This document shows, in pieces, positions 14,901-26,631 of a DNA stretch of 64,000 bases. The stretch spans positions 109,818-173,817 of IMG/VR virus record IMGVR_UViG_3300042197_004918. The stretch is one strand, 5' to 3'. A program made the translations under genes and the position numbers. Within the stretch, counting starts at the first letter, position 1. The number at the start of each line of letters is the position of its first letter. Origin of the DNA: a virus. The notes beneath the pieces are model-generated. The model searched no databases and had not been told where the DNA came from. It worked only from the letters and a program-made list of their open reading frames with translations.

Positions 14901-14974
14901 GCGGGTATGATGTAATGGTAGCCTATAACTTTGCCAAAGTTGATGCGAGGGTTCGATTCCCTTTACCCGCTCCA
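14901..14974 (+). tRNA. tRNA-Gly(GCC)
   Basis: Acceptor GCGGGTA/TACCCGC, anticodon loop TTGCCAA, T-arm GAGGG-TTCGATT-CCCTT, CCA encoded. Confidence 0.92.
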
Positions 14975-15787: not shown

Positions 15788-15861
15788 GCTCAAGTGATGT
15801 AATTGGAAAACATCTTTGTCTCAAAAACAGAGTTTTGTGGGTTCAACTCCCACCTTGAGCA
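15788..15861 (+). tRNA. tRNA-Leu(CAA), copy 1
   Basis: Acceptor GCTCAAG/CTTGAGC, anticodon stem TTTGT/ACAGA with loop CTCAAAA, T-arm GTGGG-TTCAACT-CCCAC. Only A-CC is encoded before the first base of the next tRNA (15864). The variable region is short for Leu. Near-identical D-arm to the copy at 19808. Confidence 0.75.
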
Positions 15862-15863
15862 CC

Positions 15864-16933: not shown

Positions 16934-17010
16934 GGTCACGTAGCCCAACGGCAGGAGGCGGGAGTCTTAGAAGCTCTACAGTGGGGGTTCAAATCCCTCC
17001 GTGACCACCA
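16934..17010 (+). tRNA. tRNA-Leu(TAG)
   Basis: Acceptor GGTCACG/CGTGACC, anticodon stem GGAGT/GCTCT with loop CTTAGAA, CCA encoded. Its 3' half also encodes, on the other strand, the C-terminus of the HNH protein. Confidence 0.88.
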
Positions 17011-17431
17011 TTTTGTTTTTTCTTCTCCAGTTTGGTGTTATGGAATGGCAATTAGGACATAGAAGTTTTAAGTTTTGGTTTTGATTATTTTTCTTGTTTC
17101 CATCCACATGATGAACCTCAAGCGTTATTGGTTCTCCCAACCAATCCGCAGTCGAGCATCGTTCGCATTTTAATCCTCTCTCTTTAATGAGACAGTTTCT
17201 ACGAGCGGTTGCGGAAGAATAATCTTCTAAAGATTTCAAAGATTTACCCTTATTCCACAGTTGATGTGAAAAATGACTTATATCAAGATTCAATCGTTCA
17301 ATATGAAGTTTAACGGACCCCTGAGTCCCGCCGGCTTGAACTAATCCAAGATTTTTCAAAACTTGACTATAAGCACGACTTTTGGAAACAGCAACTTTTA
17401 ATTCTTCGTCTGAGTATGTTCTTTTTTTCAT
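16976..17431 (-). CDS. HNH homing endonuclease, antisense, ending inside tRNA-Leu
   Basis: 151 residues from ATG 17431, which follows a TATTTAT box by 4 nt. CERCSTADW, then LEVHHVDGNKKNNQNQNLKLLCPNCHS gives a complete HNH motif with the second zinc CxxC. The N-terminal part (YSDEELKVAVSKSRAYSQVLKNLGL) is a helix-turn-helix-like DNA-binding segment. The final residues (VTEGFEPPL) are the antisense translation of the tRNA-Leu(TAG) T-arm and anticodon region, and the stop codon lies in the tRNA. Freestanding endonuclease of the kind that drives gene mobility. Confidence 0.88.
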   Translation of the reverse strand: MKKRTYSDEELKVAVSKSRAYSQVLKNLGLVQAGGTQGSVKLHIERLNLDISHFSHQLWNKGKSLKSLEDYSSATARRNCLIKERGLKCERCSTADWLGEPITLEVHHVDGNKKNNQNQNLKLLCPNCHSITPNWRRKNKMVVTEGFEPPL

Positions 17432-17435
17432 ATCA

Positions 17436-17442
17436 ATAAATA
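17436..17442 (-). promoter_or_regulatory. TATTTAT box of the HNH gene
   Basis: Minus-strand TATTTAT, 4 nt before ATG 17431. Confidence 0.45.
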
Positions 17443-17487
17443 TGAAACGGTAGACGAATAACACAATATTTATGTGTCAACCATTTT

Positions 17488-17731
17488 GAAAACGTGAGCG
17501 TGATAAAACGCAATGGGAACTAGACCACAACGAACCGGGAAGAAATGAAAGGTCGATAAACTATAGTTCTCATGTCGATTGAGGCGGTGCGATAATCCGA
17601 TGGCGAGCGGACGCTCGTTGTGATTGGAAACAATCATACTATGGGGAACTAAGCGGTGATATATCACAAGGCACCCATAGCGCAGGGCCAGTCTTAGACA
17701 CATACGGGTCCGAACCCCGTCGTTTTCACCA
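17488..17731 (+). tRNA. interrupted tRNA with ~150-nt insert in anticodon loop
   Basis: 5' acceptor GAAAACG (17488-17494), D-stem GCG/CGC and anticodon stem ATGGG (17513-17517). 3' anticodon stem CCCAT (17674-17678), a 25-nt variable region, T-arm ACGGG-TCCGAAC-CCCGT, acceptor CGTTTTC, A73 and CCA at 17729-17731. Spacing of T-arm, acceptor and CCA is exactly canonical. The ~150-nt insert between the two anticodon half-stems carries helix GAACTA/TAGTTC, as a group I-type intron core would, but I could not trace a full P3-P9 core. Amino acid cannot be assigned. Confidence 0.5.
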
Positions 17732-17740
17732 TTTTGAAGT

Positions 17741-17785
17741 AGTAGGCTTAGAAGCAGCCATCTTTAATCAGCGAATCGAAACGCT
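17741..17785 (+). ncRNA. 23S rRNA GTPase-centre-like element, copy 1
   Basis: 17745-17762 reads GGCTTAGAAGCAGCCATC, identical to the universally conserved helix 43 segment of 23S rRNA (E. coli ~1062-1079, thiostrepton loop with A1067). It is followed by TTTAA and a hairpin CAGCG-AATCGAAA-CGCTG where helix 44 would be. The rest of the rRNA is absent. Confidence 0.6.
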
Positions 17786-17969
17786 GGCGACGACGCCTCC
17801 GTGCAACACCGACATTACGATTGGATGTTGTGAACGAGGTGATACATAAGAAGATATAGAGAGATAATAGTCTTGTGTATTGCCGTCCAGTATCTCCGCA
17901 GAAAGTAAACGGATACTCCGTAACTGGTAAGGTCCAATTATTCCTTGGCGTAAAAGCAGACTTCAATAT
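17786..17969 (+). other. spacer RNA downstream of GTPase-centre-like copy 1
   Basis: About 180 nt without ORF or tRNA between the 23S-like element and tRNA-Pro; hairpins such as GGATACT-CCGTAACT can be drawn but no family is recognised. Confidence 0.35.
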
Positions 17970-18044
17970 CCATCCGTCGCCTAACTTGGTATGGCATCTC
18001 ATTTGGGGTGAGAAATAATCTCGGTTCAAATCCGGGCGGGTGGA
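17970..18044 (+). tRNA. tRNA-Pro(TGG), copy 2
   Basis: Acceptor CCATCCG/CGGGTGG, anticodon stem TCTCA/TGAGA with loop TTTGGGG, T-arm CTCGG-TTCAAAT-CCGGG. Tail A-CC-T, CCA incomplete. Confidence 0.85.
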
Positions 18045-18058
18045 CCTGATTAGAAGAA

Positions 18059-18100
18059 AGTAGGCTTAGAAGCAGCCATCTTTTAAAAAGTGACGAGTGG
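18059..18100 (+). ncRNA. 23S rRNA GTPase-centre-like element, copy 2
   Basis: The first 25 nt (18059-18083) are identical to copy 1 at 17741, including the 18-nt helix 43 match; sequence then diverges (TTTTAAAAAGTGACG). A CGTAAC stretch occurs 50 nt on (18131), where a helix-44-like loop might be. Confidence 0.55.
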
Positions 18101-18320
18101 AAAAAGTATCTGTTGCAACAGAGAAATAAGCGTAACGGGTTTGTCAAGTCCCCGACGTATAACCACAGGGAATATAAATCCAAAAAACGATGTAAATAGT
18201 TACGGTGGGACAAGCAAGGTTGACCAACTAATGTAGAATAACGAGTGTCTAAGGGGTTCTACAAATGACTATTTTACCCTTTAACAGTCTTTGGCGTCAT
18301 AGCATACTTCTAATCTTTAT
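18101..18320 (+). other. spacer RNA
   Basis: 220 nt between the second 23S-like element and tRNA-Trp. TCTGTTGCAACAGA is a perfect hairpin; no tRNA, ORF or family recognised otherwise. Confidence 0.35.
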
Positions 18321-18391
18321 AGCGTGGCTACTGGGTAGTGCGGAAACTCCAAATCTCTGCTTCGTCGGTTCGATTCCGACTCACGCTGCCA
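18321..18391 (+). tRNA. tRNA-Trp(CCA)
   Basis: Acceptor AGCGTGG/TCACGCT with G73 as in Trp tRNAs, anticodon loop CTCCAAA on stem GGAAA/TCTCT (one mismatch), T-arm GTCGG-TTCGATT-CCGAC, CCA encoded. Confidence 0.8.
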
Positions 18392-18422
18392 GTGGTGTCA
18401 GTAACACAAAACTATTGATTAT

Positions 18423-18536
18423 CGCAGTTAGGGCAAAGATACGAGCCGCCACGGTATGGACTGTGGAGGGGTGTGTGAGACGAGATTTGACGCTGGAATC
18501 TATCACTGTTAACAGGTTAAAGTCCTGTAGCTGCGA
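18423..18536 (+). tRNA. tRNA-like gene with 45-nt variable region
   Basis: CGCAGTT/AGCTGCG acceptor, D-stem GGC/GCC, anticodon stem CCACG/TGTGG with an 8-nt loop GTATGGAC, then ~45 nt before a canonical T-arm ACAGG-TTAAAGT-CCTGT and A73; tail CC-T. Either a degenerate tRNA or one with an expanded loop and inserted variable domain. Anticodon not assignable. Confidence 0.4.
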
Positions 18537-18546
18537 CCTTAATTTT

Positions 18547-18619
18547 CGGGATGTAATGTCAGTGGCAGACGGCCGAGCCTGGAACTCGGAGGTCGCAGGT
18601 TCGAGTCCTGTCATCCCGA
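18547..18619 (+). tRNA. tRNA, probably Pro(TGG), with C33
   Basis: Acceptor CGGGATG/CATCCCG, anticodon stem CCGAG/CTCGG with loop CCTGGAA; centred triplet is TGG, preceded by C at 33. C1-G72 and A73 fit Pro. T-loop TTCGAGT; tail A-CC-G. Confidence 0.65.
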
Positions 18620-18686
18620 CCGTGTGAGTGTGCATACAGAACTAATCGGGACAAATGCCGAAAAGTAATCCGAGTTCACATATAAT

Positions 18687-18758
18687 GGTCTGTTCGTCTA
18701 TCGGCTAGGACGATGCCCTTTCAAGGCGTAAAGATGGGTTCGATTCCCATACGGACTA
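18687..18758 (+). tRNA. tRNA-Glu(TTC), CCA not encoded
   Basis: Acceptor GGTCTGT/ACGGACT, TTCGTCTATCGG D-arm typical of Glu, anticodon loop CTTTCAA, T-arm ATGGG-TTCGATT-CCCAT. A73 followed by CAG. Confidence 0.92.
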
Positions 18759-19018
18759 CAGTTTAACACGGTCGATCTATAGCGGGTGTAGAAATACATC
18801 TGAGGAAGTTCGCGCCACTAAAGCAGTTGATTGGGAGAATCGGCCGAGAGCAGAAATGCCGGTCGCAAAGACAGCCGATTCGTTAATACCACACAATAAG
18901 TGCAAGCCAAACAGAGCCGAGGGTAGTGCTTCCCGTTATGGTAGGCTCGGGTTGGTGCATAGTCAAATTATAGAATAAAACAGAAGCGCGGCTACATGAT
19001 ATGTTAAACCATTTTTGA
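18759..19018 (+). other. structured spacer
   Basis: 260 nt without ORF or tRNA. GCCGAGGGTAG...GTAGGCTCGGG and GATTGGGAGAATC-type inverted repeats suggest folded RNA. No family recognised. Confidence 0.4.
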
Positions 19019-19047
19019 TTGACTTGTCGTTTGAGATGTCCTATCAT
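19019..19047 (+). promoter_or_regulatory. sigma70-type promoter, leaderless configuration
   Basis: TTGACT (19019-19024), 17-nt spacer, TATCAT (19042-19047), 6 nt to ATG 19054. Confidence 0.75.
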
Positions 19048-19053
19048 TTTATT

Positions 19054-19293
19054 ATGAATACTTCATCTATTGCAGAAACTTGTTCTTTTTGTAAAAACCC
19101 GGCTGCAGGATACAATATCATGGGAGATTTTTGCAGTGGACATAAAGAACTGTTTGTCAGAGATTGGACAAAACAGACTTTGTATGACCTATTACTTGAA
19201 TACCCGAATGAACGGGTGGATGGTTTGGTGAAGTTGTTCAATGGATATAAAAACTTCACAACACGCTGGCCCGATGGTAATATCGTTGGATGA
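19054..19293 (+). CDS. hypothetical protein with zinc-like site
   Basis: 79 residues from ATG 19054. CSFCKNP ... DFCSGH gives a CxxC/CxxH metal site near the N-terminus. Overlaps the next gene by 4 nt. It interrupts the tRNA array together with the following gene. Confidence 0.65.
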   Translation: MNTSSIAETCSFCKNPAAGYNIMGDFCSGHKELFVRDWTKQTLYDLLLEYPNERVDGLVKLFNGYKNFTTRWPDGNIVG

Positions 19294-19802
19294 AGAAATA
19301 TCAAATGTATCTCAACGTAGGGGATTGGTCTGGTGATGGTCACGAAAAACACGACCGAGTTTTGGTTGAATCCAACCTTCCGGTTGCCGACGTCCAACAG
19401 GCATACAAGGATTCTTGTAAGTTGACCGGAGTTCAACTCAACGGTAATGAAGATTATACCGGTATTAAACGCGATTGGATGGCCGCTAGAGAAGTCCAGC
19501 TTCTCACCGAGTATGAGGAATCAAAAATTACTCCAAAACAATTTGAAGTGTTACAAAAACACGGATTGAAGTCGAAAATGATAGCCAAGTGGAACGGAGA
19601 AGATGATGCCGAAGAAACTGCTGAAGGTGGATATTATATCTACGGTGTCGATGCGTATGTCAAATTTTGGATATGGTTCACATCACTCTCCAACAAAAAA
19701 CTAAAAATTACCGAAATTCCTGACGATGAAAACATCCCCAATATCAACGGATACTGGGATAAAAATCTCAACGCGGGATTTGGATATGGAATTTATTCTT
19801 AA
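19290..19802 (+). CDS. hypothetical protein
   Basis: 170 residues, soluble alpha/beta. MKKYQMYLNVGDWSGDGH and a central segment TEYEESKITPKQFEVLQKHG can be noted; no family recognised. Ends 5 nt before tRNA-Leu(CAA) copy 2. Confidence 0.6.
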   Translation: MKKYQMYLNVGDWSGDGHEKHDRVLVESNLPVADVQQAYKDSCKLTGVQLNGNEDYTGIKRDWMAAREVQLLTEYEESKITPKQFEVLQKHGLKSKMIAKWNGEDDAEETAEGGYYIYGVDAYVKFWIWFTSLSNKKLKITEIPDDENIPNINGYWDKNLNAGFGYGIYS

Positions 19803-19807
19803 CTAAT

Positions 19808-19884
19808 GGTCAAGTGATGTAATTGGAAAACATCGTTTACTCAAAATAAACGTTTTGTGGGTTCAACTCCCATCTTGACTACCA
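19808..19884 (+). tRNA. tRNA-Leu(CAA), copy 2
   Basis: Acceptor GGTCAAG/CTTGACT, anticodon stem GTTTA/TAAAC with loop CTCAAAA, CCA encoded. D-arm identical to copy 1 at 15788 (TGATGTAATTGG). Confidence 0.82.
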
Positions 19885-20503
19885 ATTTCTTTGCTCGTCG
19901 GTAGTTTCGTCCGTTCTCAAGTCCGACCTTTTTAAGAGCTTGGTGGATATTTTCCGAAGATTTTAACGATTCAATCAACTCTTCATCAGAAACATTTCTT
20001 TTGATTTTATTTCTTCCACCATAAGTGGGTGTTATGGAATGACAGTTCGGACACAACAATCTTAGATTTTCACGAGTATTGTTTCTTCTGTCTCCGTTAA
20101 TATGGTCTAATTGAAGAGACAGTTTAACCCCATTCCAACTATCAATTCCACACAAACATTTGTCGGATTGTTCAGATGAAATCAAAGATTTGATAACGTT
20201 TTTACTTAAAAGTTCAAATGGAGTTTTGGAAATTCTATCGTCTAAAGATTTCCGAGAAGCTATAACCGCCTTAATTCTATCATCGTTTGTAAAAACTTTT
20301 CGTCTTGAGTCAAACCCCGAAACGAATCCTCTGCCGGGGGATGATTTACCTGTCAAGGTTTTAGACACCTTTTCGTTTATCTCCTTTCTCTTATTTTTGG
20401 TTGCAAACGACCTAGAACATTTAATAGAACAGAATCGTCCGCTTCCAATAATAATTGAAAAGTCGGAATTACAATTTTCACAAGATTTTATCACAGAGTT
20501 CAT
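19841..20503 (-). CDS. HNH homing endonuclease, antisense, ending inside tRNA-Leu
   Basis: 220 residues from ATG 20503, 6 nt after a TATTTAT box. N-terminal zinc finger CENCNSDF ... CSIKC, then NUMOD-like basic helices, an HNH core LQLDHINGDRRNNTRENLRLLCPNCHS and a C-terminal helix-turn-helix segment (SDEELIESLKSSENIHQALKKVGL) like the one at the N-terminus of the 16976 protein. The last ~14 residues (VVKMGVEPTKRLF) are read from the antisense of tRNA-Leu(CAA). A nuclease cutting tRNA-Leu alleles that lack the insert is the natural guess. Confidence 0.88.
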   Translation of the reverse strand: MNSVIKSCENCNSDFSIIIGSGRFCSIKCSRSFATKNKRKEINEKVSKTLTGKSSPGRGFVSGFDSRRKVFTNDDRIKAVIASRKSLDDRISKTPFELLSKNVIKSLISSEQSDKCLCGIDSWNGVKLSLQLDHINGDRRNNTRENLRLLCPNCHSITPTYGGRNKIKRNVSDEELIESLKSSENIHQALKKVGLENGRNYRRAKKLVVKMGVEPTKRLF

Positions 20504-20509
20504 ATAGAC

Positions 20510-20516
20510 ATAAATA
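20510..20516 (-). promoter_or_regulatory. TATTTAT box of the second HNH gene
   Basis: Minus-strand TATTTAT, 6 nt before ATG 20503. Confidence 0.45.
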
Positions 20517-20547
20517 TATCTCTGTAGGTTCAAAAGCAAAAATATTT

Positions 20548-20623
20548 GCGGATGTAGCTCAACTGGCAGAGCGCTTGCCTTCCAAGCAGGCTGTTGTGGG
20601 TTCAACTCCCATCATCCGCTCCA
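20548..20623 (+). tRNA. tRNA-Gly(TCC)
   Basis: Acceptor GCGGATG/CATCCGC, TAGCTCAACTGG D-arm, anticodon stem CTTGC/GCAGG with loop CTTCCAA, CCA encoded; its final A is the A of the next gene's ATG. Confidence 0.93.
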
Positions 20624-20790
20624 TGAATACTAATCAGAAACGAATTAAACACGAGGAGGATTACATAAACTTCCTCGAAAAACGTCTCGGTAGTATGAAT
20701 TTCAAAAGGAATTCTTCTCCGGAAGAAATTGAAAAAACTGAAGCAAAACTCAAGAAAGCAAAGTTGGTTTTGAGAGTTTTGAAGAAGTAA
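20623..20790 (+). CDS. small basic coiled-coil protein starting in tRNA CCA
   Basis: 55 residues (MNTNQKRIKHEEDYINFLEK...). Lys/Glu-rich helix. The ATG overlaps the CCA end of tRNA-Gly (CCATG), so there is no leader of its own. Function unknown. Confidence 0.6.
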   Translation: MNTNQKRIKHEEDYINFLEKRLGSMNFKRNSSPEEIEKTEAKLKKAKLVLRVLKK

Positions 20791-20793
20791 ATT

Positions 20794-20881
20794 GGACGGT
20801 TATCCCGTAGGGGTAGCGGTACGCGCTGTAAACGCGTTGCCTTAACAGGCTCGGGTGGTTCAACTCCATCACCGTCCACCA
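20794..20881 (+). tRNA. tRNA-Tyr(GTA), copy 2
   Basis: Acceptor GGACGGT/ACCGTCC, anticodon stem ACGCG/CGCGT with loop CTGTAAA, long variable arm, CCA encoded and shared with the ATG at 20881. Confidence 0.93.
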
Positions 20882-21018
20882 TGAAAAAAATAAATCGCCT
20901 AAACGAACCTAAGAAAGATAAAACAAAGGTGAGGGTTCCTCAATGGACTCTGGCACTGATGGTTGCTGGTGTGATAAGTAAGGATTCGGTCGTTGAGACA
21001 TTAAAACAATCAAAGTGA
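20881..21018 (+). CDS. small protein starting in tRNA CCA
   Basis: 45 residues (MKKINRLNEPKKDKTKVRV...): basic N-terminus then a hydrophobic helix LALMVAGVISKDSVVETL. Start codon is the last base of tRNA-Tyr plus TG. Unknown. Confidence 0.55.
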   Translation: MKKINRLNEPKKDKTKVRVPQWTLALMVAGVISKDSVVETLKQSK

Positions 21019-21038
21019 GACTTTATCTAAGTAGTGAC

Positions 21039-21045
21039 TATTTAT
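21039..21045 (+). promoter_or_regulatory. TATTTAT box, 4 nt before start codon
   Basis: Precedes the lipoprotein gene at 21050. Confidence 0.45.
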
Positions 21046-21049
21046 AGTT

Positions 21050-21619
21050 ATGAACAGATTCAAGTTTCTTTCGGTATTTCTTTTAACTTCGTTAATCCTC
21101 TTAACGTCGGTATTTTTTACTGGATGTGAGAACGGGTCCGCTCAAACATCGACAAAGTTACCGTCAGCTCCTTCAAAGGTTTATACAGCGGATGAGCTGC
21201 AAAATTTAATGTTTAAAAACGGTATAAACACCGGAACATTCTTACTTGCCGACAAAAACTACGTATTAACTACAAGGGAGTGGATTAGGTCTGACTTTTC
21301 CCGTGGTCTGACAGCATTTCAGTTTCAGATGGGGATAGACAAGTGGGTGGCTGAAACAAATGATTGTGATAAATTCGCCACTGCTGCGACATTTTATGCT
21401 AAGTGGCTGAGTCATTCATCCCCGAACAGAAATGTTAGAGCATCCCTCGCTTTTGGTGAACTGCACTATTCGAGGGAGAGTGACGGACGTGCCCACGCTA
21501 TAAATTTCTTCGTAGTTAATGAAGGGGAACTCAAACTCGTGTTCTATGAACCACAAAATCATAAAATCGTGAATTTGACCAAGGGTGAACAATTTAGTGT
21601 ATTCTTCTGGAGACTATGA
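21050..21619 (+). CDS. lipoprotein with transglutaminase/papain-like core
   Basis: 189 residues. Signal peptide with a run of Leu/Ser/Val and lipobox-like FFTGC (Cys26), so an envelope lipoprotein. The mature part holds ETNDCDKFATAA, GRAHAINFFV and FYEPQN, matching the Cys-His-(Gln/Asn) order of papain/transglutaminase-like folds. A cell-wall or envelope role during infection is inferred. Stop overlaps a second, tiny lipoprotein gene (ATGA). Confidence 0.75.
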   Translation: MNRFKFLSVFLLTSLILLTSVFFTGCENGSAQTSTKLPSAPSKVYTADELQNLMFKNGINTGTFLLADKNYVLTTREWIRSDFSRGLTAFQFQMGIDKWVAETNDCDKFATAATFYAKWLSHSSPNRNVRASLAFGELHYSRESDGRAHAINFFVVNEGELKLVFYEPQNHKIVNLTKGEQFSVFFWRL

Positions 21620-21738
21620 AAAAACTCATTTTAATAATCGTATTTTCGTCAGTATTGATGGCCTGTAAGACGGCCGACGTGTTTCCACCAAGGAACATCC
21701 CAAAGCCCCCTGTAGAGTTCTCTAGTATTGACAAATAA
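21616..21738 (+). CDS. 40-residue Pro-rich lipoprotein, possible outer-membrane spanin
   Basis: MKKLILIIVFSSVLMAC: a lipoprotein signal with lipobox VLMAC, then a mature peptide of 24 residues with four prolines in FPPRNIPKPP. Size, lipobox and Pro content are those of Rz1-type o-spanins. The partner i-spanin is not adjacent, so this remains a suggestion. The stop region contains the next promoter. Confidence 0.6.
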   Translation: MKKLILIIVFSSVLMACKTADVFPPRNIPKPPVEFSSIDK

Positions 21739-21755
21739 TCAATCTACTGTATAGT
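21728..21755 (+). promoter_or_regulatory. sigma70-type promoter, leaderless configuration
   Basis: TTGACA (21728-21733), 16-nt spacer, TATAGT (21750-21755), 6 nt to ATG 21762. The -35 box lies in the last codons of the lipoprotein gene. Confidence 0.75.
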
Positions 21756-21761
21756 GTTCTT

Positions 21762-22124
21762 ATGGATGAGAACGAAGTATTGAACGAGATTTTTGGTCAG
21801 ACGCCCTTGTGGAAGGGTAAATATAAAATCAAGTGGTGTGAACTGTGTCGGACTTCCATCATCGTGTGTGAAGAGTGTAAGAACAGTTCTTGTAACGGCG
21901 GCGGATGTAAGGAGTGTGACGAAGCATTTTCGTCCTTCGCTAAGGCCAAGACAACCATTGAAGAATATCTCACCGAAGAAGAAATATACGCATACCACAA
22001 AGCGATGTATTTGAAGGAGTTTATACAAACGTCACTCGGTAAGGGTGAAAATGAAATTGACTTTGAACGGATGAATAGAGACGGTGAACTTTCCGAAGTA
22101 ACGCGAAAGATGTTTTTGAAGTAA
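21762..22124 (+). CDS. Cys-cluster protein
   Basis: 120 residues. CELC ... CEECKNSSCNGGGCKEC (26-54) holds eight cysteines, enough for two zinc ions in a treble-clef or RING-like arrangement; the C-terminal half is helical and acidic. Unknown function. Followed by tRNA-Arg 6 nt after the stop. Confidence 0.65.
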   Translation: MDENEVLNEIFGQTPLWKGKYKIKWCELCRTSIIVCEECKNSSCNGGGCKECDEAFSSFAKAKTTIEEYLTEEEIYAYHKAMYLKEFIQTSLGKGENEIDFERMNRDGELSEVTRKMFLK

Positions 22125-22130
22125 TTTAAT

Positions 22131-22203
22131 GGGTCTATGGTGAAATTGGACATCATAGGAGTTTCCTAAACTTTTGTTTCCGGTTCGAGTCCGGATAGAC
22201 CTA
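22131..22203 (+). tRNA. tRNA-Arg(CCT)
   Basis: Acceptor GGGTCTA/TAGACCT, anticodon stem GGAGT/ACTTT with loop TTCCTAA, T-arm TCCGG-TTCGAGT-CCGGA. Tail A-CC-G. Confidence 0.85.
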
Positions 22204-22210
22204 CCGCGCG

Positions 22211-22294
22211 GGTTTCGGTTGGGTGCCCCAAAGGACGGGATTAACTCCGTCAGAGGCCCATGTGGTCGAGGGAGTTGATTGAAACCAACTCCAA
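22211..22294 (+). ncRNA. tRNA-like structured RNA
   Basis: GGTTTCG can pair with TGAAACC (22279-22285); inside are GACGG-GATTAACT-CCGTC (8-nt loop) and, partly exclusive, GGAGTTG-ATTGAAAC-CAACTCC. No T-arm. Possibly a decayed tRNA. Confidence 0.3.
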
Positions 22295-22308
22295 ACCGTT
22301 TTAATTTT

Positions 22309-22506
22309 ATGAACATGGATCGTATGTTAGATGAAGGTGGTTACACCTTAGACGAAGAGTTATTTATAGCAAATCACTCTTCCATAGAAATATGCGAACT
22401 GTGTGGTGACTATTTTGCTATTCATCCCGACTACTGTTATGTCGGACGCAATAATTTCGTAGAATTGACCTTTGGAGGACGATTCTACTGTCAGAAGTGT
22501 AAGTAA
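22309..22506 (+). CDS. small zinc-ribbon protein
   Basis: 65 residues (MNMDRMLDEGGYTLDEELF...). CELCGDYF ... FYCQKCK forms a CxxC/CxxC zinc site separated by ~30 residues. Sits between tRNA-Arg and tRNA-Ser. Unknown. Confidence 0.6.
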   Translation: MNMDRMLDEGGYTLDEELFIANHSSIEICELCGDYFAIHPDYCYVGRNNFVELTFGGRFYCQKCK

Positions 22507-22508
22507 TT

Positions 22509-22599
22509 GGATGGTAAACCCGAAAGGTTTGGGAACTGCCTCGAAAACAGATTGCTGGGCTTAAAACCCAGTGGGCTTCGATTGCTCTGCCATCCGCCA
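22509..22599 (+). tRNA. tRNA-Ser(CGA)
   Basis: Acceptor GGATGGT/GCCATCC with G73, anticodon loop CTCGAAA, variable-arm hairpin CTGGG-CTTAAAA-CCCAG typical of Ser, CCA encoded. The anticodon stem is imperfect. Confidence 0.85.
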
Positions 22600-22602
22600 G
22601 AT

Positions 22603-22869
22603 ATGGAAACAATAAGATTGTGTGCTCGAGTAGTGGACAACGGCGATAAATCCGTTAATTTAGTTGACTTGCTCGTTGGGTCAAAATTGACAAAGAGCAA
22701 ACGAGAGGCGAGAGATTTAATCTCTTCGGGTGGAGCTTACATAAACGGCGTCCGAACCACTGAAAATAGAGATATATCTACGGATGATTTGATTGGTGAT
22801 GAAATAGTTCTCCGTAAAGGTAAAAAAACACATTTTGTTCTAAAGTTCTTAAATATAAGAGGTAAGTAA
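22603..22869 (+). CDS. stand-alone S4 RNA-binding domain (TyrRS C-terminus-like)
   Basis: 88 residues from ATG 22603; upstream in-frame sequence is tRNA-Ser. VNLVDLLVGSKLTKSKREARDLISSGGAYINGVRT is the S4 fold with the KSKREARDLI helix, followed by ILRKGKKTHFVLKF-like C-terminal strands as in bacterial tyrosyl-tRNA synthetases. Only the tRNA-binding domain is present, no catalytic core. Two tRNA-Tyr genes occur in the same island, so binding to phage or host tRNA-Tyr is a reasonable inference; S4 domains also bind rRNA. Confidence 0.85.
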   Translation: METIRLCARVVDNGDKSVNLVDLLVGSKLTKSKREARDLISSGGAYINGVRTTENRDISTDDLIGDEIVLRKGKKTHFVLKFLNIRGK

Positions 22870-22889
22870 AACCGATAGGTTTGGTCATT

Positions 22890-22977
22890 GGAATGCAAAA
22901 CCTCAAGGCGAGGTCGGTGATTGGAAATCACCTGGACGCCCTAAACCAGCGTTGAGATTCGAGTTCTCTACATTCCG
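22890..22977 (+). tRNA. tRNA-Ser(GGA), CCA not encoded
   Basis: Acceptor GGAATG/CATTCC, anticodon stem GGTGA/TCACC with loop TTGGAAA, long variable arm, G73 as in Ser, then CAG. Most of it overlaps an antisense endonuclease gene. Confidence 0.85.
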
Positions 22978-23637
22978 CAGTATTATTTCCAGATATTTTT
23001 CTGAAGTTCTGTCGTTGAAGTGTTTTTGGTCAGAAATATCTATGACTACTAACTTGATGCTGTTTTCCAAACAAGATTTAACTTTCTTTTTATCATTCTT
23101 GACGGTGGAAACCAGTTTATCTTTTCCAAAAATCGGTTTATAATGAAAAATACCGTTCAATTCAAAAGCCAATCTCAAAGAGGGAATATAAATATCCAAC
23201 TCGGAGTTTATGTCTTTTCTCTGATTAAATCTAATCTCTAATGTTGGAAAAGTTTTTTTAAGTTTCTCTTCCAAATATTTTTCAAGTTTAGATCTCCTAC
23301 AACCACACGATTTTCTAACAAAATGTTCATTATTATACTTTGCTGCACAAGAATTTGAACAGAATTGATTTCCGGTTTTTGACCTCTTAATGAGAGAATT
23401 CTTTCTATAAAAAGAAAGGTCACACACTTTACACTTCACGATTTTTCCTTTATTTAGAGCAACATTTCTACAATCCGTTCCACAGTATTTTAAAATTTTC
23501 CTATATCCACATTTCTCCGACCATTTGATGTCGTTTTTCTTTCCGTAAAATTGGGCATGGCAATTTTCACATTCCAACTTTAATTTTTCCGTGGATTTGG
23601 CAGAAGAAAATTCCTCATCCGTGTAAAGCTTAATCAT
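22903..23637 (-). CDS. EDxHD/Vsr-like homing endonuclease, antisense to tRNA-Ser
   Basis: 244 residues from ATG 23637. N-terminal zinc fingers (CENCHAQF, KYCGTDC, CKVCDLSF, CSNSC) for DNA binding; the nuclease core ELDIYIPSLRLAFELNGIFHY ... IKLVVIDISD matches the PD-(D/E)xK/EDxHD family related to Vsr and I-Bth0305I. The C-terminal ~25 residues (for example LGRPGDFQSPTSP) and the stop lie within tRNA-Ser(GGA). TATTTAT box 4 nt before the start. Confidence 0.82.
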   Translation of the reverse strand: MIKLYTDEEFSSAKSTEKLKLECENCHAQFYGKKNDIKWSEKCGYRKILKYCGTDCRNVALNKGKIVKCKVCDLSFYRKNSLIKRSKTGNQFCSNSCAAKYNNEHFVRKSCGCRRSKLEKYLEEKLKKTFPTLEIRFNQRKDINSELDIYIPSLRLAFELNGIFHYKPIFGKDKLVSTVKNDKKKVKSCLENSIKLVVIDISDQKHFNDRTSEKYLEIILRNVENSNLNAGLGRPGDFQSPTSP

Positions 23638-25556: not shown

Positions 25557-26540
25557 AAGGTTAGTTGAGTGAACACGAAAGACCTTAGATTAAAAACTCA
25601 ACTGTATGATTGATACACAAATTAATCCGTTTACTGGTGACGATAGTGCGGTAAGACCGATGTGGGGTTGATTTAATCCACGTAGTTTTGAGGTGACTTA
25701 TCATCCTCACGTTTTGTTGATTGTTCTTTGTAAGTAGAATTTGGGAGGCCTGACTCCCTTCAAGATAAACCGTCGTAAGACGGCTAAAGCAGAAACCCCC
25801 TAACGGGACTGCGCCACAGTAATGTGGACACTCAGGCAACTGACGAATCAGTGTCTTTCACTCAAAAGGTGGAAGTATGTCTGAAGCTGGATTGGTAAAT
25901 GGTGATTGAGGGTAACACTGTAAATCATCTACTAACGGTACCGCCGAGCACTACTAATTCCTAACGGAACAGCCAAGAATAAGATTCAAGTCAAACGTAT
26001 AGATACAAGTCCGCAAGCAAGTGTTTATATGTAGAATGATAGAGAGTGGCCCAGGGTAACCGAGGACATAATCTTGAAATTCGGTGAAGTATCCGCAAGA
26101 GAAACACAAATGGTGTGTGGTATATTGGTTCCCAAAAGGAATTGATGTCACAAGCAACGCACGTCATTGTTAGGTGCATATTATATCATTGTTAGATAAA
26201 CTATATACAAAAAAGCCAAGTCGTTGCTTGTGTTCGTCGAAAAGAACGTAACTCTGAGGCCGTAAGGTAACTCAGACAACGAAGCGCTCGCAAGGTGTTA
26301 GTTGTTGATCCGAGTTTGGACGTGGTCCGCAAGACCTAATTGCTCGCAAGGCAACCGTTTGAATAGAGGTTGATTAGATGGACATTAAAGATGAAAAGCC
26401 GCATCTCTAAAAAGGCCGTTCTGTCAAATACAGACATAAACCGTAAGGTTGTGGATGTGGATACGTTGGGAAAGCAGCCCGCAAGGTTGTAATAATCCAA
26501 TCAAAGGTTGACACGAAACACTGTAGTCTCAGGTTTCATT
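25557..26540 (+). ncRNA. giant ornate RNA (GOLLD/ROOL-like candidate)
   Basis: About 980 nt with no ORF of note, own promoter, between tRNAs. Many helices can be read directly: AGTTGAGT/ACTCAACT at the 5' end, CCGTC-GTAA-GACGG, CCAC-AGTAAT-GTGG, an 11-bp perfect helix CACAAGCAACG/CGTTGCTTGTG (26149 and 26222), GGTC-CGCAA-GACC, AACC-GTAA-GGTT and several more capped by GCAA or GTAA. Size, ornate folding and place in a phage tRNA array are the known features of the GOLLD and ROOL RNA classes, which form large RNA multimers; class membership is not shown here. Confidence 0.6.
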
Positions 26541-26542
26541 TT

Positions 26543-26631
26543 GGATGGGTGGCGGAGCCCGGTTTATCGCGCTAGTCTTGAAAACTAGAGAGGCCTAAAA
26601 ACCTCCGTAGGTTCAAATCCTACCTCATCCG
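26543..26631 (+). tRNA. tRNA-Ser(TGA), CCA not encoded
   Basis: Acceptor GGATGGG/CTCATCC, anticodon stem CTAGT/ACTAG with loop CTTGAAA, long variable arm, G73, then CAG. Confidence 0.92.

Follow-up and report, generated by a model that had tools for sequence, protein, structure and literature searches.

The final 64 kb of a 173.8-kb record from a large uncultured virus of bacteria (IMG/VR record IMGVR_UViG_3300042197_004918), which we call the window, contains a cluster of transfer RNA (tRNA) genes, of which ARAGORN recognises 24 on the plus strand between positions 14901 and 26728. Three nuclease open reading frames (ORFs), termed here HNH1, HNH2 and the third nuclease, lie on the minus strand within this cluster, which is the type of location known for SegB-type genes, and each terminates inside a plus-strand tRNA gene (Table 1). 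The coordinates of the ORFs and tRNAs confirm what an earlier note on this DNA had described, namely that the three genes are antisense to, and end within, tRNA-Leu(TAG), tRNA-Leu(CAA) and tRNA-Ser(GGA). The overlaps amount to 35 nt for HNH1, 44 nt for HNH2 and ~76 nt for the third nuclease. tRNA-Ser(GGA) was missed by ARAGORN and by an Rfam search up to an E-value of 1; folding predicts a complete class II cloverleaf for it (-28.7 kcal/mol, z -2.4).

Table 1. Positions of the nuclease genes, their tRNA partners and other elements in the window
Feature	Position (strand)	Remarks
HNH1	16976-17431 (-)	ATG start likely at 17431, ORF open to 17464; N-terminal DNA-binding-like module and C-terminal HNH
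tRNA-Leu(TAG)	16934-17010 (+)	ARAGORN; Rfam tRNA, 55.8 bits; opposite strand of its last 35 nt provides the HNH1 tail and stop
9-bp direct repeat ACCATTTTG, left copy	17007-17015 (+)	At the 3' end of tRNA-Leu(TAG), flanking HNH1
9-bp direct repeat ACCATTTTG, right copy	17480-17488 (+)	Just upstream of HNH1; third copy at 17728-17736
HNH2	19841-20503 (-)	ATG start likely at 20503, ORF open to 20605, into tRNA-Gly antisense; HNH, then a C-terminal SDEEL..RAKKL module
tRNA-Leu(CAA), second copy	19808-19884 (+)	ARAGORN; Rfam, 51.6 bits; HNH2 tail and stop lie opposite its last 44 nt
tRNA-Leu(CAA), first copy	15788-15863 (+)	ARAGORN and cloverleaf fold; not nuclease-linked
Third nuclease	22903-23637 (-)	ATG start likely at 23637, ORF to 23670; zinc-finger-like N terminus
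tRNA-Ser(GGA)	~22889-22978 (+)	All except the first ~14 nt covered by the third nuclease ORF
tRNA-like stretch with insert	17485-17733 (+)	~245 nt
GGCTTAGAAGCAGCCATC, two copies	17745 and 18063 (+)	
RNase P RNA-like stretch	18764-19006 (+)	
Class II cloverleaf, tRNA-Ser(CGA)-like	22508-22598 (+)	
tRNA with CUA anticodon	25210-25284 (+)	Called Pyl
GOLLD RNA	26108-26535 (+)	211 bits

HNH1 matches the Pfam HNH family above its cut-off (22.6 bits), and HNH2 gives matches slightly below the cut-offs (21.2 and 23.4 bits). Both genes match PHROG 10822 (HNH endonuclease; E 5.3e-40 for HNH1 and 1e-24 for HNH2), HNH2 also matches PHROG 14736 (E 5e-24), and the catalytic motif expected of members of these two families (HH..N..H with a CPNCH zinc knuckle) is present. 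No GIY-YIG domain occurs among the Pfam and PHROG matches of HNH1 and HNH2, which include nothing but HNH nuclease families. The two proteins are also related to each other (41% over 65 aa, E 1.9e-15), and the description of three unrelated types of nuclease in the earlier note is thus incorrect. The position of an SDEEL..L..LGL module appears to differ between the two, at the N terminus of HNH1 but at the C terminus of HNH2. This would resemble a permutation of the DNA-binding part, although it is a reading of the sequence with a weak match (E 0.59).

The third nuclease matches PHROG 559 (HNH endonuclease, E 1e-15) and two homing endonuclease families, 9084 (E 1.6e-7) and 3339 (E 8.9e-8), with its residues 132-239 aligning to a homing endonuclease profile of that database. 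A sequence search against solved structures (PDB) gave no credible relative, and the structure model, with a predicted local distance difference test score (pLDDT) of 35, is unusable for judging the EDxHD / Vsr-like type to which the earlier note assigned this gene. In a check of seven records for viral hallmarks, a terminase family was found in three, once above the cut-off and not in the window's record; a T4 portal search found 0 of 7 and is uninformative, its control being silent too.

All three C-terminal tails are read from tRNA antisense, as the earlier note had proposed. They comprise ~11 residues in HNH1 (..VVTEGFEPPL), ~14 in HNH2 (LVVKMGVEPTKRLF) and ~24 in the third nuclease (RNVENSNLNAGLGRPGDFQSPTSP), the last being longer than the 10 residues first noted. 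The antisense of the T-arm is read as GFEP in HNH1 and as GVEP in HNH2, and in a different frame in the third nuclease. If TAG were read as sense, HNH1 would gain three residues only. Relatives of HNH2 end in ..NNYSRAKRLLEK or similar, the tail-less ones stop at the tRNA edge directly after ..RAKRLLEK, and HNH1-like relatives end in ..NYRGKNK with no tail; therefore, the tails are additions. Comparison with homologues that do not overlap a tRNA thus marks the tail as extra, tRNA-derived sequence, and none of the relatives was seen to have the same C terminus away from a tRNA.

Judging from these sequences, the tails appear to be incidental, in that the conserved nuclease ends flush with the tRNA in either orientation and the tRNA merely provides the stop. 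Given that the nuclease would need no 3' untranslated region, its last codon could come to lie flush with the neighbouring tRNA regardless of orientation. An ORF that lacks a stop of its own would run into the antisense of the tRNA as far as the first stop there, and in this way acquire a non-conserved tail. We give almost no credence to the alternative that the tail is a captured C-terminal peptide required by the nuclease. The sequences GFEP, GVEP and GLEP do recur, as the antisense of the T-arm has no stop in this frame, but close relatives that end in ..GKNK or ..RAKRLLEK have no tail, and the third nuclease uses another T-arm frame. The suggestion that the tRNA was captured as a functional need of the ORF is likewise not supported, since many relatives have no tail and the tails that exist differ in both length and frame.

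Relatives of the HNH genes in other viruses

Two samples of viral relatives were assembled, both of which rest on exact 8-residue seeds. A search seeded with HNH2 yielded 66 loci, forming 44 clusters at 85% identity, none of which was retrieved via a tRNA-derived tail peptide. The seed of the second sample was a distant relative of HNH1, itself without a tRNA in its fetched locus, and this sample comprised 64 loci in 43 clusters. A tRNA is present in the fetched stretch for 44 of 44 and 41 of 43 clusters, respectively, although presence within ±3 kb has no random-locus baseline. With expected counts taken from shifted positions inside the same loci, the nuclease stop lies within 10 nt of a tRNA edge in 15 of 44 clusters (1.6 expected) and 14 of 43 (1.2 expected). 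The 5' end of the nuclease does so only once in the first sample and never in the second.

When both samples were clustered jointly at 70%, 23 of the resulting 68 clusters abut a tRNA within 10 nt, 19 in sense orientation at the tRNA 5' end and 4 in antisense. The earlier proposal that the insertion point is fixed with respect to the 3' end of the tRNA is not supported by this distribution. tRNA-Leu accounts for 13 of the 23 abutting tRNAs, compared with an expectation of 5.8 based on these loci (2 of 20000 draws). On a tree of HNH proteins (unbiased set, 39 rows), which is supported by few alignment columns, changes between Leu and other tRNAs number 6 vs 12.1 after shuffling (0 of 500), those of amino acid 13 vs 14.6 (27 of 500) and those of anticodon 23 vs 26.1 (13 of 500); among Leu tRNAs alone, the anticodon shows no significant signal on this tree (113 of 500). 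Both HNH genes of the window adjoin tRNA-Leu, yet in the rarer, antisense orientation.

The antisense arrangement was sought in viral contigs with a pattern joining a tRNA T-arm to an antisense HNH (CPNCH motif) within 22-52 nt. It occurs in 82 stretches, compared with 1 for a control in which the T-arm letters were complemented, and it is therefore more than chance. A recognised tRNA is present at the site in 73 of the 82, and 65 of these also have an ORF of at least 90 aa, which overlaps the tRNA by at least 1 nt in 60 cases and by at least 15 nt in 25. Stops range from a few nt short of the tRNA 3' end to 99 nt beyond it. The overlap and intron counts took all 82 stretches; the reading of HNH1-like C termini took 80, as did the analysis of stop range and tail frame, in which a motif and length filter dropped 26 of the 80.

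These counts bear on the idea that selection favours the antisense layout, with either the nuclease transcript silencing the tRNA or transcription of the tRNA cluster silencing the nuclease. All three nucleases of the window are antisense, as against 4 of the 23 abutting relatives, and 60 of the 65 antisense relatives overlap their tRNA. However, the majority of relatives are sense-oriented, and the overlap varies from 1 to 99 nt, with a variable tail frame and often little more than the stop codon. We therefore consider such selection improbable. Antisense RNA to the tRNA would arise from transcription of the nuclease, as had been predicted, but a functional role for it is not supported.

An intron interrupts the tRNA in 30 of the 82 antisense stretches, with a length of ~200 nt among the cases listed. 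The Rfam group I intron model (Intron_gpI) matches in 11 of 16 loci scanned, and in silico excision yields tRNA-Leu(UAA) in all 5 cases checked. For several of the intron-bearing genes, the anticodon reported by ARAGORN is odd (Phe, Lys, Pyl). The nuclease lies outside the intron, antisense, right after the 3' exon of the tRNA. Two members of the same nuclease clade, the contigs L130 and L163, are intron-free, and their ORFs read deeper into the tRNA. An intron-bearing tRNA with an adjoining antisense nuclease has the layout of collaborative homing, in which the intron would be expected to confer immunity. No intron was found in the window's own tRNAs, and the window thus lacks the adjacent intron of such systems.

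Six HNH relatives have counterpart alleles that lack the nuclease, and the gene is thus optional at these loci. All six show a split, replaced or exchanged tRNA at the insertion site, PEi26 qualifying only relative to one of its two relatives. In four of the six the gene lies inside or in place of the tRNA of the empty allele, and in three the neighbouring tRNA is an exchanged isoacceptor (Michonne is counted in both groups, and PEi26 only against KLB31). In Bop, compared with EFGrNG, the HNH gene sits within tRNA-Gln at the anticodon arm, with both halves kept, the 16-nt anticodon arm gone and flanks 99.7-99.9% identical. In LCK69, compared with PAK_P1 and K8, an HNH gene replaces tRNA-Trp except for its last ~11 nt, and the records of several LCK69 relatives annotate tRNA-Trp at that position. 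The HNH gene of CM8, compared with RB14 and Sf23, replaces tRNA-Gln after 8 nt and ends at the start of tRNA-Leu; a SegB-like gene stands in place of tRNA-Pro in the same comparison. Relative to Sf15 and skuden, the Michonne gene starts after the first ~12 nt of tRNA-Leu(TAG), and a second tRNA-Leu(TAG), 65% identical to the lost one, lies 1 nt past its stop, with the nearby Lys, Thr, Gly and Ser tRNAs 97-100% identical.

The remaining two loci concern exchange. An all-against-all search of flanks gave 35 candidate pairs, of which L153/L130 alone was examined to base level. This pair, antisense like the window, has tRNA-Thr (96%) and tRNA-Asn (87%) flanking the site in both members, and between these lies a tRNA-Gln with 65% identity, to which the HNH gene and a short additional stretch are joined. 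In PEi26, compared with KLB31, the adjacent tRNA-CAT has been exchanged (55 of 77 positions) and tRNA-Leu is identical (86 of 86).

tRNA genes as candidate homing sites

The layout, the origin of the tails, the enrichment at tRNA edges, the bias towards tRNA-Leu, the empty sites in other phages and the introns are direct observations, and they point to homing endonuclease genes that are free-standing and that home into phage tRNA genes. We put the probability of this reading at about 0.7. The earlier claim that the tRNA sequence is the target draws its support from the empty sites, the intron-bearing tRNA-Leu(UAA) and the Leu enrichment, all of them in relatives; it extends to the window by homology, on which basis the three genes would be expected to behave as their relatives do.

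We infer tRNA cleavage, its timing, repair from the donor and self-protection from established homing biology together with the layout. In a mixed infection, the nuclease would cut the nuclease-free tRNA gene of the recipient, and repair from the donor would copy the nuclease gene into the recipient. In the resulting locus the original tRNA may be split, replaced, exchanged for a divergent isoacceptor or shielded by a small group I intron, and any such change would prevent re-cutting.

Neutral docking offers another explanation: tRNA clusters may be dispensable or tolerant regions in which homing genes that cut elsewhere accumulate, with loss of spacer leaving their 3' ends flush with tRNAs. 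In its favour, the target of a free-standing endonuclease can be a gene next to it, the relatives are found in both orientations, and about half of them occupy tRNA regions but do not abut a tRNA (20 of 44 and 25 of 43 clusters are >60 nt from any tRNA edge); the PEi26 insertion is also intergenic relative to IME523. We nevertheless consider this explanation unlikely, if by no means negligible, given that four of the six HNH loci with an empty relative have the gene inside or in place of a tRNA, that tRNA-Leu is over-represented within the same loci and that one clade adjoins the intron-bearing tRNA-Leu(UAA).

Several further observations, along with the non-abutting relatives just mentioned, weigh against tRNA genes as homing sites. 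The PEi26 insertion relative to IME523 is clean, lying between intact tRNA-Leu and tRNA-CAT genes and bounded by an 8-bp direct repeat. Divergence also extends to tRNAs that are not nuclease-linked, such as the tRNA-Ala of Michonne (76%) and, in L153 vs L130, the tRNAs for Ile (83%) and Glu (74%). For the window phage, no nuclease-free allele was found: its DNA had no match in the phage collection, and an 18-nt scan with the 3' end of tRNA-Leu(TAG) returned two stretches, both unrelated. No viral-contig relative was found for HNH1, for the third nuclease or for the neighbouring gene at 19290-19802. The third nuclease lacks family evidence of this kind: of five relatives fetched, four have no annotated tRNA close by (two of these records are wholly unannotated), and the nearest tRNA in the fifth is ~1.4 kb away. 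The window also retains two copies of tRNA-Leu(CAA). Finally, general co-mobility of nucleases and tRNAs was considered and rejected, in that similarity among linked tRNAs does not exceed that among unlinked ones (shuffles out of 2000: Leu(TAA) 267, Leu(TAG) 1202, Leu(CAA) 1638, Met 1253, Lys 1441), with the exception of Gln (2 of 2000).

The two tRNA-Leu(CAA) copies share the same cloverleaf and have different acceptor and anticodon stems. The unlinked copy would fit a target-resistant one, and could equally be an ordinary duplication. A second copy with the same anticodon accompanies 2 of 39 linked tRNAs, as against 88 of 653 unlinked ones; this scarcity fits replacement over addition without proving it, and tRNA-Leu(CAA) of the window is an exception. 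The length of the direct repeat around HNH1 was reached in 2 of 1000 shuffles, and the repeat resembles that around the PEi26 gene. No direct repeats flank HNH2 or the third nuclease, where repeats of the observed length also arise in 904 and 924 of 1000 shuffles.

Other RNA elements in the tRNA clusters

The tRNA cluster of the window contains a stretch that matches the archaeal RNase P model over its full length with 34 bits (E 2.1e-8 in a short search), which is below the gathering score of 84; the conserved GAGGAAGUUC and AACAGAAG..GGCUAC align. To our knowledge, a phage-borne RNase P RNA would be unusual. The sequence GGCTTAGAAGCAGCCATC occurs twice, and its second copy is 91% identical to E. 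coli 23S ribosomal RNA (rRNA) over 33 nt, a match that we take to be the GTPase-associated-centre / L11-binding hairpin and possibly an rRNA mimic. A GOLLD RNA is immediately followed by tRNA-Ser genes, which start at 26543 and 26637.

The tRNA with a CUA anticodon is a possible amber suppressor. Reading TAG as sense makes ORFs only modestly longer, and among the 53 ORFs with 150 aa or more TAG is the stop of 6, so that recoding is unproven. A class II cloverleaf that resembles tRNA-Ser(CGA) by eye is missed by ARAGORN, matches a tRNA-Sec model weakly and folds well. Another stretch has complementary ends (gaaaacg/cgttttc) and a T-arm-like 3' end followed by CCA, like a tRNA with an insert, and had no notable Rfam match.

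Among the contigs with an antisense HNH gene by tRNA-Leu, five (L088, L108, L117, L126 and L150) also carry transfer-messenger RNA genes above the Rfam gathering score; their tRNA-Leu is intron-bearing in all except L126. A Pistol ribozyme (52 bits) is located at L130:8850-8912 (-), in the same contig stretch as the tRNA cluster.

Relation to known systems

Homing genes in phage tRNA clusters are already known. SegB, a free-standing GIY-YIG endonuclease of T-even phages, is described as a homing gene of the tRNA region (PMC2988022), and a 2026 report by Chihara et al. describes amplification of a tRNA gene by SegB and co-localisation of SegB with tRNAs without isotype preference (PMC13096335). 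The genes described here resemble SegB as homing genes in a phage tRNA cluster, where SegB spreads or amplifies tRNA genes. They differ in that HNH1 and HNH2 are of the HNH type, in that their relatives lie flush against tRNAs with a Leu bias, and in that the empty sites of these relatives reveal split tRNAs and exchanged isoacceptors. For HNH genes in viral tRNA clusters, a survey from 2019 suggests that they may spread tRNAs (PMC6409571).

Collaborative homing is reported for F-CphI, which adjoins the intron-bearing psbA of cyanophage S-PM2 (PMC6083498). The layout of the relatives is alike, but the gene presumably protected is a tRNA, with intron immunity suggested by layout, and the tRNAs of the window are intron-free. 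A 2014 review states that phage group I introns had been seen in protein genes only (PMC3984707); the viral contigs in which a free-standing HNH gene adjoins an intron-bearing tRNA-Leu(UAA) bear on this statement. In a partial search of the literature we found no later report of introns in phage tRNA genes, including tRNA-Leu(UAA) beside a free-standing nuclease. The same search found no report of a Leu-biased HNH family docking at tRNA edges, of HNH genes replacing tRNAs, or of tRNA splitting or isoacceptor exchange at HNH insertion sites.

HNH endonucleases of the F-TflIV / hegA type, from T-even and Enterococcus phages, are annotated relatives of HNH2 located in tRNA clusters. They differ from it in their sense orientation, and their records say HNH endonuclease with no tRNA target stated. 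Integrative elements that use tRNA genes as attachment sites likewise favour tRNA genes and have boundaries at the tRNA end; here, by contrast, there is no restored 3' end, the boundaries are variable and the tRNA is often lost.

Why phages carry and reshuffle tRNA genes is an open question, to which the usual answers are codon usage and escape from tRNA-cutting defences. If tRNA genes are homing sites, nuclease-driven conversion would be a third, testable force acting on phage tRNA sets, and it would predict the identity and location of the tRNAs that are split, disappear or give way to a divergent isoacceptor. Only tentatively, and with more doubt than confidence, do we propose that phage tRNA repertoires are shaped in part by parasite-driven breakage and isoacceptor swapping, beyond codon usage and host defence. 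Homing genes that break, delete or swap tRNA genes could then help to explain why the tRNA sets of viruses change so rapidly.

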